Assembly (NCBI GenBank): GCA_021817355.1
Contig: JAKAVI010000186.1
Location: 1 to 12,333 of the forward strand
Reading direction: 5' to 3'
DNA: 12,333 nt
DNA from: Pseudomonadota bacterium
GTDB lineage: Bacteria; Pseudomonadota; Alphaproteobacteria; Micropepsales; Micropepsaceae
The first letter of the stretch is position 1; every line of letters starts with the position of its first letter. This document shows positions 1,540 through 12,333 of the stretch, one piece after another. A program made the translations under genes and the position numbers. The notes under the pieces were generated by a model. That model saw only the letters and a program-made list of their open reading frames with translations. It ran no database searches and was not told the origin of the DNA.

Positions 1540-2421
1540 ATGGCAGATTTTCTTTCCAACTATTCAATTCAGAGATGGCTTGAATCGTGTCCGCAAGGCT
1601 ATCTTGAAGACACGGTTTATGGACACGGGCCAGACGATCACGAACCGGAGTCCATGCTCGATAATGATCTTTTGCGCGAAAGCGAGATTCGCTCAACCGT
1701 ACAGCTGATTGCCGGAGAGCGCTGTGCGCTTGCGGCCTCTTCTGGCCTCATCAATTCGGCTCCCGACCAGGCCAGCAAGGCATTCCTCGCAACCCAGACG
1801 CTCGACGAGGGCCGACATGTCGAGATCTTCACCCAGCGTCTCTACGATCTGGGCATAAAGCCCCAGGATCTGGAAGTCACGATCACCACCTATCTTAATC
1901 CTCACCTGGCGAAATTTGCGGAAGTTTTGCTCGAGAAGGTGGACAAAAAGGACTTTGTCGCCGGCGTAGTCGGTCAGAATATCGTGCTCGAAGGTATGGC
2001 GTTCTCGGTCTTCGAAATGCTGCAGGCTTCCCACGCGGAGACCAATCCCAAATTTGCCCATACGCTGTCCGGTACGATCGCCGATGAGCGACGCCATGTT
2101 GGCTTCGGCGAAAACCGCATCGGTGAGTTAATCCGTCGCTACCCAGAGCGCAAAGCCGACGTCGAACGCATGCAGCGCGACATGTCCAAACACATGCTTG
2201 CTACCTTCCATGTCGCTTTCTCCGGAAGCGCGGCTGCCAATGAGGAGGTCAAGAGGCAGATGGACAGCGGCGCCCGGCCCAAGACCCATGCGGTATACCA
2301 GGGCGTGGACCTTGCGAACGCCTCGACTGAAGAGATGGAAAAGGTTCTTGCCTCGACCGTACTGGGTGAATTCAAGACACGGCTCGCTCGCATCGGCCTG
2401 GAATATCAGTCGCCACTTTGA
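1540..2421 (+). CDS. R2-like ferritin-fold diiron protein A (putative oxygenase/oxidase)
   Basis: 293-aa soluble, all-helical protein with the complete carboxylate-bridged diiron signature: Glu60 (LIAGER), Glu90/His93 (DEGRH), Glu151 (IVLEG) and Glu183/His186 (DERRHVGFG), the 4-Glu/2-His set of the ferritin-like superfamily that includes ribonucleotide reductase R2, R2lox, VlmB-like N-oxygenases and bacterial multicomponent monooxygenases. Such proteins use O2 or peroxide to hydroxylate, N-oxidise or desaturate substrates. I see no radical-Tyr context that would identify a true NrdB, and no NrdA is nearby. The start is set by the Shine-Dalgarno AGGGAGGA (1527-1534), 5 nt before ATG. It heads a three-gene operon; the stop codon overlaps the next gene's Shine-Dalgarno. 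The C-terminal ~80 residues beyond the last ligand helix are specific to this paralogue. The fold is confident; the reaction is unknown. Confidence 0.85.
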   Translation: MADFLSNYSIQRWLESCPQGYLEDTVYGHGPDDHEPESMLDNDLLRESEIRSTVQLIAGERCALAASSGLINSAPDQASKAFLATQTLDEGRHVEIFTQRLYDLGIKPQDLEVTITTYLNPHLAKFAEVLLEKVDKKDFVAGVVGQNIVLEGMAFSVFEMLQASHAETNPKFAHTLSGTIADERRHVGFGENRIGELIRRYPERKADVERMQRDMSKHMLATFHVAFSGSAAANEEVKRQMDSGARPKTHAVYQGVDLANASTEEMEKVLASTVLGEFKTRLARIGLEYQSPL

Positions 2422-2423
2422 GG
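2420..2423 (+). promoter_or_regulatory. Ribosome binding site that fixes the start of diiron protein B
   Basis: GAGG overlaps the stop codon of diiron protein A (TGA 2419-2421) and lies 6 nt before ATG 2430. This favours ATG 2430 over the in-frame TTG at 2418, which would add only four residues and has no Shine-Dalgarno of its own. The arrangement implies translational coupling. Confidence 0.7.
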
Positions 2424-2429
2424 ATCACC

Positions 2430-3206
2430 ATGAGCGGTCAGGACGATCCTCATCAGCTCGATGCATCAGCTTTCCACAAGACGGTGCATTCCTTCGAGTT
2501 CTGGTTCGAGGCCGTGGAGGGATACCTCCACGGCCGCCAATATGGCGTCTCACCGGCAACCCACGAGGCTGAACTCTCCGAACGCCAACGCCAAAGCTTG
2601 ATCACTATCTTGTGCAATTACTGCGTCGGCGAGACCGCGGCACTCGACGCCTCAAGCGGCATGATTGGCTTTGCACCCGACCGCCTCTCGAAAATCTTCC
2701 TTTCAACCCAGGTCGTCGACGAGGGGCGTCATCTCGAAGTCATGCTTCACCGGCTGGGTCAGCTCGGCGTCCGCGATCCCGAAGCCGAAATTCCGCTTCG
2801 TGCCAATCGCAGCCTCCTGAAATTCAAGGAGCGCCTGCTCGATTTCGTTCATGCTAGTGACTGGGAAGCTGCCGTGCTCGCGCAGAACGTAATCCTGGAA
2901 TGCATGGAGTATACCGTGTTCCGCTATCATGCGGCGCACGCCGACCCCATCACATCAGAAATGCTGAACGGGGTGGTCTCGGATGAGCGCCGTCACATGG
3001 GTTTTGGCGAGAACGATCTCGGCCGCAGACTGATCGCCGCGCCGCATGCGCATGAGCGGCTGCTGAAGATAAAGCGCGAGCTTGATCCTCTGATTCTGGA
3101 TACCTTCTCCGAAACCATGGGAGAACTGGGACTAGAGCCGGCCAGCCGGCCCGATCTGGCGAGCGAATATCTCGGTGCCGTGGCAAGGTTGGGGTTTCAA
3201 TCGTGA
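2430..3206 (+). CDS. R2-like ferritin-fold diiron protein B (paralogue of A)
   Basis: 258-aa paralogue of the preceding protein, with all six diiron ligands conserved: Glu68 (CVGET), Glu98/His101 (DEGRH), Glu157 (VILEC) and Glu186/His189 (DERRHMGFGEN). Shared stretches include ASSG[LM]I, APD..SK.FL.TQ, QN[IV][IV]LE and DERRH[VM]GFGEN, so the pair arose by duplication. Between the fourth Glu and the end it is shorter than A and lacks A's extra C-terminal segment. Two intact active-site sets are notable: if the proteins form a heterodimer, neither is an obviously dead structural subunit. The 8-bp gap to A and the 4-bp GTGA overlap with the next gene indicate one tightly coupled transcript. The substrate is unknown; O2-dependent oxidation and peroxide or NO handling are both possible. 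Confidence 0.85.
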   Translation: MSGQDDPHQLDASAFHKTVHSFEFWFEAVEGYLHGRQYGVSPATHEAELSERQRQSLITILCNYCVGETAALDASSGMIGFAPDRLSKIFLSTQVVDEGRHLEVMLHRLGQLGVRDPEAEIPLRANRSLLKFKERLLDFVHASDWEAAVLAQNVILECMEYTVFRYHAAHADPITSEMLNGVVSDERRHMGFGENDLGRRLIAAPHAHERLLKIKRELDPLILDTFSETMGELGLEPASRPDLASEYLGAVARLGFQS

Positions 3207-3499
3207 ATGATCCTCTGGAAACACAGCGCGGCGGAACCGAAAAGCGTCCGCGTCAGATCTTCGAGCTTGAGGAAACCGGTTTCAACGAAGTGCCACCGCG
3301 CTACCGCCGCTTCTACCGGCGTTGGAAAGGTGCCTCGGACTTTCTTGCCCCCAATGAAGTCAAATGCCCGGTCTGCAAGGTCGTGATCCGCTCCCGCGTG
3401 GAGCTTCGCGCCGGAGACCGGGTTTACTGCATGCCGTGCATGTCCCGTCTCGAGGTGGTAGAGGAAAACGGCCAGCTCGTCGCGAAGGTGCTTTATTAA
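3203..3499 (+). CDS. Small double-CxxC (zinc-ribbon or rubredoxin-like) protein
   Basis: 98 aa, starting at GTG 3203, which overlaps the previous stop by four bases (GTGA). A weak GGGG (3191-3194) is the only Shine-Dalgarno candidate, so translation is probably coupled. Residues 1-50 are charged and aromatic (RYRRFYRRW at 34-42). Residues 55-79 carry two Cys pairs, CPVC (55-58) and CMPC (76-79), 17 residues apart, followed by a short beta-like tail. Four Cys in two CxxC knuckles bind one Zn (zinc ribbon) or one Fe (rubredoxin). The Gly that normally follows each knuckle in rubredoxin is absent here (CPVCK, CMPCM), which favours zinc. Placement directly behind two diiron proteins suggests a partner: electron donor, assembly factor or regulatory subunit. 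I do not recognise the family by name. Confidence 0.8.
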   Translation: MNDPLETQRGGTEKRPRQIFELEETGFNEVPPRYRRFYRRWKGASDFLAPNEVKCPVCKVVIRSRVELRAGDRVYCMPCMSRLEVVEENGQLVAKVLY

Positions 3500-3659: not shown

Positions 3660-6008
3660 TTAGAAATACACGCTTACTGAGCCGAACACGGCTCGTCCTG
3701 CACCCACCAGCGCCTGTAGATACTGGTTGCCATTATAATCGAAATTGGCGGTTTCGCGGGCGTAGTACTGCTCGTCCGTCAGATTGTCGACATTGAGCGA
3801 AAGCTTGAGCGCACGCGCTCCTGCGTAGTTGAGTGGTATGGTCTTGTTGATGCCGAGATTGAGCGTGACATAGGACGGAACGGTGATCGCAGGTGACACC
3901 GGTGCACCCGAATAGCCGTTTGATACGTAGCGGGTTCCAACATACTGCCCGTCGAGGTTGACGCGCCAATTGTCATGGGCCCAGACCATGCCCGCAGAGA
4001 GAAGGTCCTGGGGAACGTCCGGAACGCTCTGGCCCGCTGTAAAGGTCGCTCCCACTCCGGTATCGGCGATGGTGGCGTTCGAGGTATAGACAGCCTCGTT
4101 GTGGGCATAGTTGAGGTAGCCATTCCACCGTCCGACGAGCCAGTGACCGAGGTTGTCGCTGAGCATCAGCTCTTCACCCTGATACCGTGCCGAGCCGCCA
4201 TTGCGGGTGTAGGTGAGCCCCGAAACCGGATCGGTCTGGGTAACAAAAATGCTGCGGAAGTCTTCACGGTAATAGTTGAACGCAGCGATCAGGCCACGCC
4301 ACTTGTAGCGCACACCGGCCTCATAGTCGTTGACGTATTCCGGCCTGGCCTGCACCGGAACGATGACCGGATTGCCATTAGCATTGGTCTGGAAGGCGCC
4401 GTAAAAGGCACTGATGTCGGGAAATTTCGTGTTCTGGCCGAAGGCCCCGTAGAACACGAGATTACGCATGGCTTCGACACTGGCGCCGATGGTTGGCGAT
4501 ACATAATGGTCGTCACCGACGTCAGTACCGGGATTGGGGTAGTAAAAACCTAAATTGTCGCTATTGGTCGTATGAGCATAGAGATACTTGACCCCCGGCA
4601 CCACGTGCACGCGGCCATTCCAGAAATGAATATCATCCTGGATATAGGCTGATGCGAGCAGACGGTCGTCATGTTCGTCCCAGGCGTCGTTGTAGCCGGG
4701 CGTCAACGGCATGTTGGGCGAGCCATACCAGTATTCACGGCTGTAGAGCTGGCTGTACGAGAAGTCACCACCAACAGTCACCATGTTGTGAGGCAGGTTG
4801 AGGCTCAGCTTGCTCTGCCCACCGCCCGCAGTACGCTGGTAACCATAGAAGTGATAATCCGTACCGTTCACATTCGATCCGAAAAGTGCCGCCGGATTAT
4901 AAGTCAGCGGGACCGTATAGCCGAGCCAGAACGAGCCATTTGTGCCCTGGTTGGGCAGGTAATAGGGCTGGATCGCGCTCTGATAGAAGGCCGGATTGGC
5001 GTAGGACATGCGCTGGTAGTCGTTACCGATACCATAGAGCTTGATGTCGAAATGCGCGACACGATCGAGCTGGGTGTCATAACCGACAATGGCGAGCCAG
5101 GACGAATTGCGGTTATAGGAATAATCCCAGCTGAGGGGATACTGATAGTTGTAGCCGTTTGACTGGAGCAGAGCGAGCGGTACCGAATGAGGAGAGTATC
5201 CGGTATTGCTGTCGTAGACGAAGACTGCCGTCAGTTTTGACCGGCCGCCGTTCAGATCCTTTTCACCAGAGTAGTAGAAGTTGTCGTTATGATCCTGGCT
5301 GTTCTTGATCCAGCCATCGCTGTAGTCATGTTCGAAGGAGATTAGGTTCTTGAAGCCATCGACCGGCGCAAAGTTGACTGTGGCGTGGTAGCTGAAGGTA
5401 TTGAAGCTGCCATAGCTAACGCCTGCGTCAGCACCAAAATGATCACCAGGCGCACGCGGTACATAGTTGATCGTTCCGCCGAGGGAGTTATAGGTGTTCA
5501 CGGCAGGATTGTTGACACCGCGATGAACCTCAATGGTGTCGATGTCCTGGGGCAACAGGAGGGTGTTGTTGCGCTGGGACGCCGCGTTTGAGGTGCCGGC
5601 ATTGAACTGGTCGTTCAGCGCAACGCCATCAATGGTCTGGCCAAACTGGCCGTCATTGAAGGCACGGAACGTGATGTGCGTACGCATGCCCGCGGGCCCG
5701 GATGTCACAGCCTGAATGGAGGGAACCTGGTTGAGCAGCGTCTGCACCGTCACCCCTGGGCCCGGAGACACATTGCGCAGTACCTGCTGGCTGATCGTAC
5801 TTGTGGAGTAGACCGATTTGAGCGGGATGGTCTGGGAGGCAACATGCTTGCCCGTGATCGTGACGGTTTCGATCGATGAAACCGGATCCGAGGCCCCCGT
5901 ACCGGCAAGGGCTGCCCCGGTGGAAAGTACCAGCAGCAGCGCCGTCGAGCCCGACATGCCTCGACTTTTTCTGCTACATCCCGAAAATCTCATTGACTGA
6001 AGCCCCAT
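3660..6008 (-). CDS. TonB-dependent receptor, full length
   Basis: 782-aa outer-membrane transporter. The basic N-terminus is followed by a signal peptide core (STALLLVLSTGAALA, about 21-35; cleavage likely after ALA), a TonB-box-like ETVTITG (47-53), and a plug domain (about 55-190) with the expected ITFRAFNDG, QTIDGVALND, IDTIEVHRG and the Gly-rich LGGTINYVPR. The remainder is a 22-strand-type barrel ending in SVSVYF with terminal Phe, preceded by the conserved NVDNLTDEQYY segment. ATG 6008 is chosen because GGGAG (6018-6022) lies upstream at proper spacing; in-frame ATGs at 5993 and 5957 would still keep the signal peptide. The ligand is unknown: nothing nearby encodes siderophore synthesis, glycan degradation or vitamin B12 functions. 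The gene is intact and monocistronic, with its own promoter region and a terminator shared with the diiron operon. Confidence 0.95.
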   Translation of the reverse strand: MGLQSMRFSGCSRKSRGMSGSTALLLVLSTGAALAGTGASDPVSSIETVTITGKHVASQTIPLKSVYSTSTISQQVLRNVSPGPGVTVQTLLNQVPSIQAVTSGPAGMRTHITFRAFNDGQFGQTIDGVALNDQFNAGTSNAASQRNNTLLLPQDIDTIEVHRGVNNPAVNTYNSLGGTINYVPRAPGDHFGADAGVSYGSFNTFSYHATVNFAPVDGFKNLISFEHDYSDGWIKNSQDHNDNFYYSGEKDLNGGRSKLTAVFVYDSNTGYSPHSVPLALLQSNGYNYQYPLSWDYSYNRNSSWLAIVGYDTQLDRVAHFDIKLYGIGNDYQRMSYANPAFYQSAIQPYYLPNQGTNGSFWLGYTVPLTYNPAALFGSNVNGTDYHFYGYQRTAGGGQSKLSLNLPHNMVTVGGDFSYSQLYSREYWYGSPNMPLTPGYNDAWDEHDDRLLASAYIQDDIHFWNGRVHVVPGVKYLYAHTTNSDNLGFYYPNPGTDVGDDHYVSPTIGASVEAMRNLVFYGAFGQNTKFPDISAFYGAFQTNANGNPVIVPVQARPEYVNDYEAGVRYKWRGLIAAFNYYREDFRSIFVTQTDPVSGLTYTRNGGSARYQGEELMLSDNLGHWLVGRWNGYLNYAHNEAVYTSNATIADTGVGATFTAGQSVPDVPQDLLSAGMVWAHDNWRVNLDGQYVGTRYVSNGYSGAPVSPAITVPSYVTLNLGINKTIPLNYAGARALKLSLNVDNLTDEQYYARETANFDYNGNQYLQALVGAGRAVFGSVSVYF

Positions 6009-10768: not shown

Positions 10769-12333
10769 TCAAAAGACCTTGGTCAGCCGAATACCGAATT
10801 GGCGCGGCGCGCCCGCATAAAGGCCTCCGGAATTGTTCGAGGCGACATATTGTTCGTCGGTCAGATTGTCCCCATAGAGCGTCACCAGCCAGCTGCCGGT
10901 CTGATACTGAAGCTGTGCACCCAAAAGATTGCGCGCACCAAGGCGGTCACCCAAGGCCGGGTTGTCGAAGATCGATGCCCACTGTCCTGAAATATGCGCG
11001 AAGCTGAGGCGTGGGGTCAGCGTATCGCCACTAGGAAGCTCGAATTCGTACTGGACACCCATATTGTAGGTGACACTGGGAGCGTAGGTGACAGGATGAC
11101 CCTTGACGTTGACGCAGTAAGGGTCACTGCCGCCCGTCTGTGCATTGCAGGTGCCGCTTGCAAGCAAATTGTATCTGGGATCGACCGCCCAGAAATTGGC
11201 GATCGAACTCTTCAGGAGACCGAAAGTGCCAGTGATCGAAAAATGCCCAAACGAGGCTTCAGTCTGACCCTCCAGGCCATAGATTGTCGTCGTTTTGGGA
11301 AGATTGACCTCATAGGTGTTGAACGGAACCCTTGGATCGGAGAGCGTGACCTGGAAGTGATTGTAATCGGTATAGAAGGTATCCAATTCGCTGCGTAGAT
11401 GGCCAGCAAAGACGCTGTTCTTCCAGCCAAACTCATAGTCGGCATCTGTCACTTTGCCAAAAGGCGCCGGGCCACCGGAGGCCGAGGTATAGGTGTTGAG
11501 GCCACCGCCCGTATAGCCGGTCGCGACAAAAGTATAGAGGAAGTTGTTCTTGTTGATCGCCCAGTCGATCGCCGCCTTGTAGGTGATATACGCGGATTGT
11601 TGCGTCTGCTGGTCGAGGTAGGGGGAGGGCGATAGCGTCGTCACCCCGAAGCCGTTGCCGTAACTCCACAGCTTGGCGTTGTTATGGGAGCGGGTCTCGG
11701 TCCAGCGCCCGCCAAGTGAGGCCGACCAGCCATCTCCCAGCTTGGCCTCAATTTGGCCGAAGCCGGCAATGTCGAGATTTGTCGTTTTACCCTGGAAGGT
11801 CCAGGAGGTGTATTGATAGAGATTGCCGAGATTGGGCGTTGGTCCGCCGGGAAAGCGCGGTCCCACCGCGATCCAGAACTGATAGGGCGAACGCCAGCCA
11901 TAATCGTTCTCCTGAGCATAGAGGCCGGCCACCCAGGTCACGCGTTGATGACTTGGAGAAATCAGATCGAGCTCTTCGGAAGATAGGGTCTCATCGACCG
12001 CATCAAAGAATGTCCAGTTGCTGGTGCTGCCAAAATAGGGAAAATCTCCGGGAGCACCGTAATCGGTTCCGTCCAGATCCGTCCGCCACAGCGTGTTGCC
12101 GGGATTATAATCGGAGATGGACTGGAGTTTTGTGCCATCGGAAAATACGTAATCGACAGTCAGGATTGCCCGCTGTTCGCGGTCAAAGCGGGACTCGGGC
12201 GCATTGGCCGTCACGTCGAAAAGATTGCTGTTGTGGTAGGGATTGGGCGTGCCGTAAGGCGCCACCGGCGCGCCTACGGGCAGGAGTTGCGAATAGGGAA
12301 CTGCAGGCGCCGCGCCGAAATCCTGGTAGAGCG
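10769..12333 (-). CDS. TonB-dependent receptor, C-terminal part (5' end outside window)
   Basis: The minus-strand frame is open to the window edge, so the GTG at 12265 is internal and roughly 521 residues are visible. All are beta-barrel: repeated strands such as ILTVDYVFSDGTKLQSISDY, WSASLGGRWTETRSH and RSELDTFYTDYNHFQVTL, the late VTLYGDNLTDEQYVASN segment typical near TBDR C-termini, and the end APRQFGIRLTKVF with terminal Phe. The GAPRQFGIR...F ending and the SELDTFYTDY strand recall the large TBDR groups of sphingomonads and caulobacters whose ligands are mostly unassigned. The signal peptide, TonB box and plug lie beyond the window. It differs clearly from the other two receptors here, so these are not recent duplicates. 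Convergent with the TetR gene, 51 bp away. Confidence 0.92.
   Translation of the reverse strand, partial: LYQDFGAAPAVPYSQLLPVGAPVAPYGTPNPYHNSNLFDVTANAPESRFDREQRAILTVDYVFSDGTKLQSISDYNPGNTLWRTDLDGTDYGAPGDFPYFGSTSNWTFFDAVDETLSSEELDLISPSHQRVTWVAGLYAQENDYGWRSPYQFWIAVGPRFPGGPTPNLGNLYQYTSWTFQGKTTNLDIAGFGQIEAKLGDGWSASLGGRWTETRSHNNAKLWSYGNGFGVTTLSPSPYLDQQTQQSAYITYKAAIDWAINKNNFLYTFVATGYTGGGLNTYTSASGGPAPFGKVTDADYEFGWKNSVFAGHLRSELDTFYTDYNHFQVTLSDPRVPFNTYEVNLPKTTTIYGLEGQTEASFGHFSITGTFGLLKSSIANFWAVDPRYNLLASGTCNAQTGGSDPYCVNVKGHPVTYAPSVTYNMGVQYEFELPSGDTLTPRLSFAHISGQWASIFDNPALGDRLGARNLLGAQLQYQTGSWLVTLYGDNLTDEQYVASNNSGGLYAGAPRQFGIRLTKVF

Follow-up and report, generated by a model that had tools for sequence, protein, structure and literature searches.

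Three consecutive genes on a contig from a member of the Micropepsaceae (Alphaproteobacteria) encode two ferritin-fold diiron paralogues, here called A and B, and a small, basic ribbon protein with four cysteines, C. On the whole, this trio is best read as an operon of a low-oxygen (microoxic or dormancy) program, whose product would be a dinuclear iron enzyme that activates O2, is built as a hetero-oligomer, and has a complete metal site in each paralogue. The strongest evidence on function, computational in nature, is the convergence of different regulatory signals upstream of the trio. The link to low oxygen goes beyond an earlier, sequence-only reading of the same DNA and was read from the leader of the trio in the window, combined with the leaders and neighboring genes of its relatives. 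The window is the whole stretch analyzed, the 12,333-nucleotide contig JAKAVI010000186.1 (assembly GCA_021817355.1), and all coordinates without a locus number are window positions.

Regulatory sites upstream of the trio

Relatives were collected in a single scan of genome contigs with B as the query, yielding a first set of 61 loci (given L numbers below), 58 of which are in records titled as metagenome-assembled genomes (MAGs). Loci were grouped by record title; some records are titled only "bacterium," and three loci titled Proteobacteria (L016, L047, and L053) grouped with the Myxococcota rows in the tree described below. For all three groups of leaders, the control set of other genes came from gene calling with remaining errors, and the Fisher comparisons treat related loci as independent.

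The window contains a single TTGA-N6-TCAA palindrome of the FNR/FixK type, and it was after this box had been noticed that the palindrome was sought in relatives. It was present in all 12 alphaproteobacterial leaders (the window and all 11 loci with an A start), at most 302 bases from the start of A. By comparison, the 107 other genes called in the alphaproteobacterial loci included 7 with the box, six of them in L011. Two of the three gammaproteobacterial loci also carry the box, and one new alphaproteobacterial locus has two FNR-type boxes.

In the Myxococcota/Binatota-type loci, the signal is a sigma-54 site. A first, strict pattern had no matches in any leader, whereas a pattern with up to two mismatches was found in 17 of these 28 loci, compared to 1.4 expected; the choice of pattern therefore matters. 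Fifteen of the 17 sites lie 49 to 125 bases ahead of the start. Among the control genes, 17 of 233 had a match, and since some of these are themselves CBS or NtrC genes adjoining the trio, the control is conservative. No site with two or fewer mismatches was seen in the 12 alphaproteobacterial, 13 actinobacterial, or 3 gammaproteobacterial loci. With three mismatches allowed, the excess was smaller (19/28 loci, 23 matches versus 7.4 expected), and 5 of the 12 alphaproteobacterial loci were matched as well (7 matches versus 3.75 expected). For five loci in which A is in pieces or not beside B (L015, L033, L053, L054, and L056), the leader of B was scanned, and the site was absent from all five. 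One further locus, L040, has a single site at −72, and its inclusion gives 18 of 29, while L003, L032, L044, L058, and L061, whose contigs break off at the operon start, are in no leader group. The site recurs in 13 of 19 new loci of the Myxococcota class and in three of the five leaders of A genes not followed by a full B (L062 to L066, from three genomes; the misses are L063 and L065).

The third signal arose when 13 leaders from Actinomycetota were scanned openly for any of thousands of possible palindromes. The motif AGGG-N8-CCCT occurred in 7 of them and in none of 77 other leaders. In the available part of the account of OsdR, its site is given as AGGGCCGATCGGCCCT and is said to conform to the Mycobacterium tuberculosis site (PMC5069765). 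A consensus written afterwards, with one mismatch allowed, matched 8 of 18 actinobacterial leaders (9 matches versus 0.57 expected). Those 18 include the 13 discovery leaders, and this leg is the weakest of the three regulatory signals.

The regulators to which these sites point belong to classes that are unrelated to each other: the Crp/Fnr family, NtrC proteins acting with sigma-54, and the NarL-type OsdR/DevR proteins. What the three classes converge on is low oxygen, and, judging from these upstream sequences, low-oxygen control of the trio is highly probable.

Conservation of the trio

The sequence-only reading had proposed to check whether the three genes occur together across genomes, and they do. 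C is found directly behind B in 59 of the 61 loci, which means that the arrangement is not due to chance and that the small partner travels with B; the exceptions are L009, where the contig stops 39 bases past B, and L058, with a partial B and without C. A is found directly ahead of B in 54 of the 61 loci, in four phyla by record title. In three of those 54 (L003, L044, and L056), A is cut or in pieces. In L032, L058, and L061, its position is cut by contig ends. Finally, A is not beside B in L015, L033, L053, and L054; it is located elsewhere in the genomes of L015, L053, and L054, and when it was sought in the L033 genome, nothing beyond B and distant relatives matched.

A quick tree of 115 rows, rooted at the midpoint, separates A from B at a branch with an SH-aLRT value of 100. 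Since each side holds several phyla, the duplication that gave rise to A and B most likely predates their spread. A, B, and C are inherited together, with A and B as old paralogues and with B and C as a near-inseparable core. In counts that include the query genomes, C is rare in most sampled groups (3/240 genomes in one alphaproteobacterial class, 5/249 in an order, 4/296 in one actinobacterial class, and 9/298 in each of two overlapping order draws) and common in the class around L053 (43/90 genomes).

Some loci depart from the standard layout. Two tandem A genes precede B and C in L018 (1394-3326), and a second A lies beyond C in L052 (10372-11238). In L065 (8010-9456), just the beginning of B (residues 9 to 63 matched) lies between A and C, reflecting either a shortened B or an assembly gap. 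In L063 (6501-8161), a stand-alone A adjoins two consecutive genes for distant A/B relatives (25 to 27% identity), and the B and C genes of the same genome are those of L053.

Metal sites and the ribbon protein

By sequence, A and B are paralogues within the VlmB/ADO/R2lox part of the ferritin superfamily (ADO, aldehyde-deformylating oxygenase); their alignment spans 216 positions at 40% identity (E = 7e-46). The four-helix ferritin fold was recovered, and each paralogue has the E...ExxH ... E...ExxH ligand set, so that the earlier claim that both proteins keep four glutamates and two histidines holds. The predicted ligands are E60 (1717-1719), E90 (1807-1809), H93 (1816-1818), E151 (1990-1992), E183 (2086-2088), and H186 (2095-2097) in A and E68, E98, H101, E157, E186, and H189 in B; each is 98 to 100% conserved (55 A and 60 B sequences), and the six columns of A align with VlmB (6d9f) in a profile alignment. 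B has, in addition, a CxxC whose cysteines, C62 and C65, precede ligand E68 by six and three residues and are each 97% conserved (n = 60). The 55 A sequences have no conserved cysteine matching them. This CxxC may be redox active or structural.

Apart from a marginal pass of B against the broad Pfam model Phenol_Hydrox (25.2 bits versus a gathering score of 24.4; A, 15.3), neither paralogue reaches a curated family of known reaction among the Pfam and NCBIfam profiles. Membership of R2lox was rejected at 30.4 bits at best against the NCBIfam R2-like ligand-binding oxidase models (cutoff, 194), and membership of ADO was rejected at 26.1 bits for B against TIGR04059 (cutoff, 222.65), with no match for A. 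The N-oxygenases AurF, CmlI, and DnfA were rejected on the seventh ligand, a histidine that precedes the second ExxH glutamate by four positions; the residue there is T179 in A and V182 in B, and the reference spacing is that of H209/E213 in DnfA and H225/E229 in Dob3 (PMC9478400, PMC12154687). Against the Pfam AurF model, B scored 14.1 bits versus 29.6. Rubrerythrin was rejected as well (Pfam Rubrerythrin, 15.2 versus 22.8 bits for A and no match for B), with C lacking a rubredoxin model match. Two outcomes would have counted against the sequence-only reading, namely, a lack of co-occurrence of the three genes and a place for both paralogues in a characterized family; both were looked for, and neither was observed.

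The CxxC-x17-CxxC motif already described for C is present as C55-x2-C58-x17-C76-x2-C79, preceded by a conserved aromatic and basic segment (VPxxYRxFYRxW-like). The weak Pfam matches of C are to zinc ribbons and zinc fingers. C is basic (median isoelectric point [pI], 8.8) and A and B are acidic (pI 4.9 and 5.05), which makes docking plausible; C is most likely a docking or redox partner of A/B, as far as sequence can tell.

Locus layout and neighboring genes

The coordinates of the trio and of its main features are collected in Table 1. The open reading frames, the 8-bp gap between A and B, the 4-bp overlap between B and C, and the 98-residue third protein are as first described; an alternative TTG start of B at 2418 is likewise possible.

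Table 1. Features of the trio in the window
Feature	Position	Strand	Description
FNR/FixK-type palindrome TTGACCTGTGTCAA	1239-1252	none	301 bases upstream of A
Gene A	1540-2421	+	293 aa, ferritin-fold diiron protein; VlmB is the closest solved structure
A ligand stretch	1717-2097	+	Six predicted metal ligands; conservation in 55 sequences and VlmB alignment
Gene B	2430-3206	+	258 aa from ATG at 2430; second ferritin-fold diiron protein, paralogue of A
B-only CxxC (C62, C65)	2613-2624	+	Conservation in 60 B sequences
B ligand stretch	2631-2996	+	Six predicted metal ligands; conservation in 60 sequences
Gene C	3203-3499	+	98 aa, GTG start; basic four-cysteine ribbon protein
C metal-ribbon motif CPVC-x17-CMPC	3365-3439	+	All four Cys invariant in 60 sequences

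The trio is flanked by genes for TonB-dependent receptors, at 35-961 (incomplete or beginning before the window) and 3660-6008. A 498-residue open reading frame at 10769-12265 looks, by eye, like a TonB-dependent receptor barrel, and no Pfam or NCBIfam model matched it. There were no Rfam matches in the window. The neighbors in the window (TonB receptors, a dCTP-deaminase-like protein, and a TetR regulator) recur, if at all, only in the nearest relatives, the TonB receptors being seen again only in L001 to L003, and they are given no weight as evidence.

Neighbors in the relatives were counted by tblastn with family members taken from these same loci. In 12 of the 28 Myxococcota/Binatota-type loci, a gene for a protoglobin histidine kinase is found at most about 8 kb from the trio, in several gene orders and not counting weak matches in L047 (108 bits) and L056 (68 bits). 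Genome-wide, there were 28 protoglobin matches across the 28 genomes, of which 25 exceeded 70 bits; five genomes had none. In the same 28 loci, CBS proteins are near the trio in 14, NtrC-type regulators in 11 (the weakest, in L056, at 62 bits), hemerythrin in 7, and Usp in 5. The earlier statement that no known pathway gene lies beside the trio thus stands for the window and fails for many Myxococcota-type relatives, in which low-oxygen regulators adjoin it.

Other neighbors were also recorded. A hemerythrin-family gene is directly behind C in L023 (9065-9514), L041 (9053-9469), and L049 (8276-8728) and one gene further in L034 (10519-11040); the L041 copy was called with Pfam, and the others were called by similarity. 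An acyl-CoA dehydrogenase gene is directly behind C in L042, L045, L046, L052, and L056. A gene for a class II ribonucleotide reductase, an oxygen-independent enzyme, is near the trio in the alphaproteobacterial loci L004, L005, and L074; in L004 (4541-6997) and L005 (3246-5603), it is divergent from A, with two FNR-type boxes at or within its called start. Subunit I of a cbb3 oxidase is encoded on the contig of C in three genomes (G264:C183, G266:C6, and G388:C5), about 7.5, 16, and 19 kb away, respectively.

Possible functions

It is quite likely that the trio encodes an O2-activating dinuclear enzyme, and a complex of A, B, and C seems probable. Because metal sites of this type activate O2, an oxygenase or oxidase working at low O2 is favored over a gas scavenger, and we lean towards oxidation of a substrate rather than removal of a gas. 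When O2 falls, regulators of the FNR/FixK, sigma-54, and OsdR/DevR types would switch the operon on. A and B would bind iron (or manganese and iron) and associate via the usual dimer face of the fold, and the basic C would dock on the acidic A/B surface, either bringing A and B together or passing electrons. If VlmB and ADO are a guide, the scarce O2 would then serve to oxidize a substrate that is small or of the acyl type.

The alternative that survives best, although we regard it as unlikely, is that A and B reduce O2, H2O2, or nitric oxide (NO) directly, with C as a rubredoxin-like carrier, and so protect the cell as it enters anoxia, following a rubrerythrin-like logic. Sites for low-oxygen-type regulators would suit such a role, as would the hemerythrin genes behind C, the CPxC-type ribbon of C, and the lack of a substrate pathway common to all loci seen. 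However, the ligand set is of the R2/VlmB type, and the Rubrerythrin model results for A and B, like the zinc-ribbon and zinc-finger matches of C, speak against a rubrerythrin system. As for NO, copper nitrite reductase was over the cutoff in just 5 of 30 trio genomes, in a search that did not cover other nitrite reductases, and cbb3 oxidase was over it in 12 of 30; in genomes that are mostly MAGs, these counts lean against NO as a common theme and towards O2.

Rather improbable as well is a special case of the substrate-oxidizing enzyme, in which the trio would desaturate, hydroxylate, or deformylate an acyl chain or aldehyde for a hypoxic change in storage lipids or membranes. ADOs are the best solved relatives of B by sequence, the closest fold match, 6d9f, carries a title naming ADO activity, and acyl-CoA dehydrogenase and wax-ester/DGAT genes are found in 11 and 5 of the 56 grouped loci, respectively. 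Yet, acyl-CoA genes, counted here in the surroundings of the trio, are abundant in such genomes, and no recurring acyl carrier, acyl-ACP reductase, or desaturase was seen among the neighbors identified. An N-oxygenase for a natural product, like the azoxy-forming VlmB, is very unlikely: VlmB is the closest fold for both paralogues, but at low identity, no biosynthetic cluster lies beside the trio among the neighbors identified (VlmO itself was not searched for), and conservation across four phyla behind hypoxia-type sites is unlike a secondary-metabolite cluster. Least likely of all is hydroxylation by A/B of RNA or protein, with the basic segment of C binding tRNA or rRNA, since the MiaE_2 match that might suggest it, along with the basic, aromatic segment of C, is under the cutoff for B (22.4 versus 25.2 bits) and weaker for A (12.3 bits), and basic ribbons also dock on acidic proteins.

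Several observations weigh against an O2-activating enzyme under low-oxygen control. It is unusual for an enzyme that consumes O2 to be produced when O2 is low, although cbb3 oxidases are precedents. The FNR/FixK box cannot separate O2 regulators (FNR/FixK) from NO regulators (DNR/NnrR), it is missing from the gammaproteobacterial locus L026, and in the window its distance of 301 bases from the start codon is far for a simple promoter. The actinobacterial box is absent from 6 of the 13 first-set leaders, and its exact pattern is absent from the three new leaders scanned with it (L076 to L078); of five new actinobacterial leaders, a single one, that of L099, comes within one mismatch of the box, and L076 has a two-mismatch sigma-54 match, presumably by chance. 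The site of NmpR, an NtrC-like regulator discussed below (GCGCA-N5-TGCGC), is not enriched in the 28 leaders with two mismatches allowed (17 matches versus 20.8 expected). CBS domains are common, with 15 to 57 matches per genome, and their proximity to the trio is therefore less telling than that of the protoglobin kinase. Finally, A is absent beside B in 4 of the 58 first-set loci that could be assessed and in 6 of 23 new loci, and the distances among A, B, and C correlate only moderately (0.46 to 0.50; 52 rows).

Many genes in hypoxia and dormancy regulons have no assigned role. Several phyla have seemingly each put the trio under their own, unrelated low-oxygen switch, so a broadly useful function under oxygen shortage is to be expected. 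We tentatively propose a broader picture, for which the odds are a little short of even: the trio might be a hitherto undescribed component that many bacteria share in their low-oxygen and dormancy programs. Its product would be a heteromer that combines two distinct diiron sites, each complete, with a ribbon protein dedicated to it. Different phyla would have connected it separately to FNR/FixK, to a protoglobin-kinase/sigma-54 circuit, and to OsdR/DevR, and it would spend the last O2 on one essential oxidation. The low-oxygen reading can be tested directly through growth, O2 consumption, and metabolites in cells kept at low O2.

Comparison with known systems

The regulatory setting recalls the NmpRSTU oxygen-utilization regulon of Myxococcus xanthus, which, in the available part of its account, comprises the protoglobin kinase NmpU, the NtrC-like NmpR, a CBS-domain protein, Usp, cbb3 oxidase, and HemN with hemerythrin (PMC11841059). 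Trio loci share several of these kinds of neighbor (protoglobin kinase, NtrC-type regulator, CBS, Usp, and hemerythrin), and they differ in the NmpR site, for which there was no enrichment. With the OsdR/DevR regulons, about half of the 13 first-set actinobacterial trio leaders share the OsdR-type site (PMC5069765). The available parts of these two accounts name no diiron oxygenase, and the word "ferritin" is absent from their main texts (PMC11841059, PMC5069765).

Among solved structures, VlmB, the azoxy synthase of valanimycin biosynthesis (PDB 8wvr; its sequence is that of 6d9f), is the closest fold for A and B, at 21 to 22% identity in structural alignments, and the best sequence match of A. 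It is a single protein of an antibiotic pathway, and the available part of its account mentions neither a ribbon partner nor low-oxygen control (PMC11705231). No recurring biosynthetic partner was identified among the neighbor clusters of the 61 loci and the window, in a search not directed at VlmO. Cyanobacterial ADO shares the fold and the type of metal site and is the best sequence match of B among solved structures (E = 2e-6). It is described, in the part of the account available, as one protein acting after acyl-ACP reductase (PMC7089970), the gene for which was not seen at the trio. From R2lox, the trio proteins are separated by scores far below the model cutoff.

A literature search of limited coverage found no description of the trio, and two complete diiron paralogues with a small ribbon protein, and without a reductase or scaffold, appear to be an arrangement not described before. 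The multicomponent monooxygenases (sMMO and the toluene and phenol hydroxylases) also combine two ferritin-fold paralogues with small partners in one enzyme. Among the scanned window genes, there is no gene for a reductase or regulatory protein such as these enzymes use, the neighbors of the relatives being identified in part. In the multicomponent monooxygenases, the beta paralogue is without metal ligands, whereas in the trio, both paralogues have complete ligand sets.
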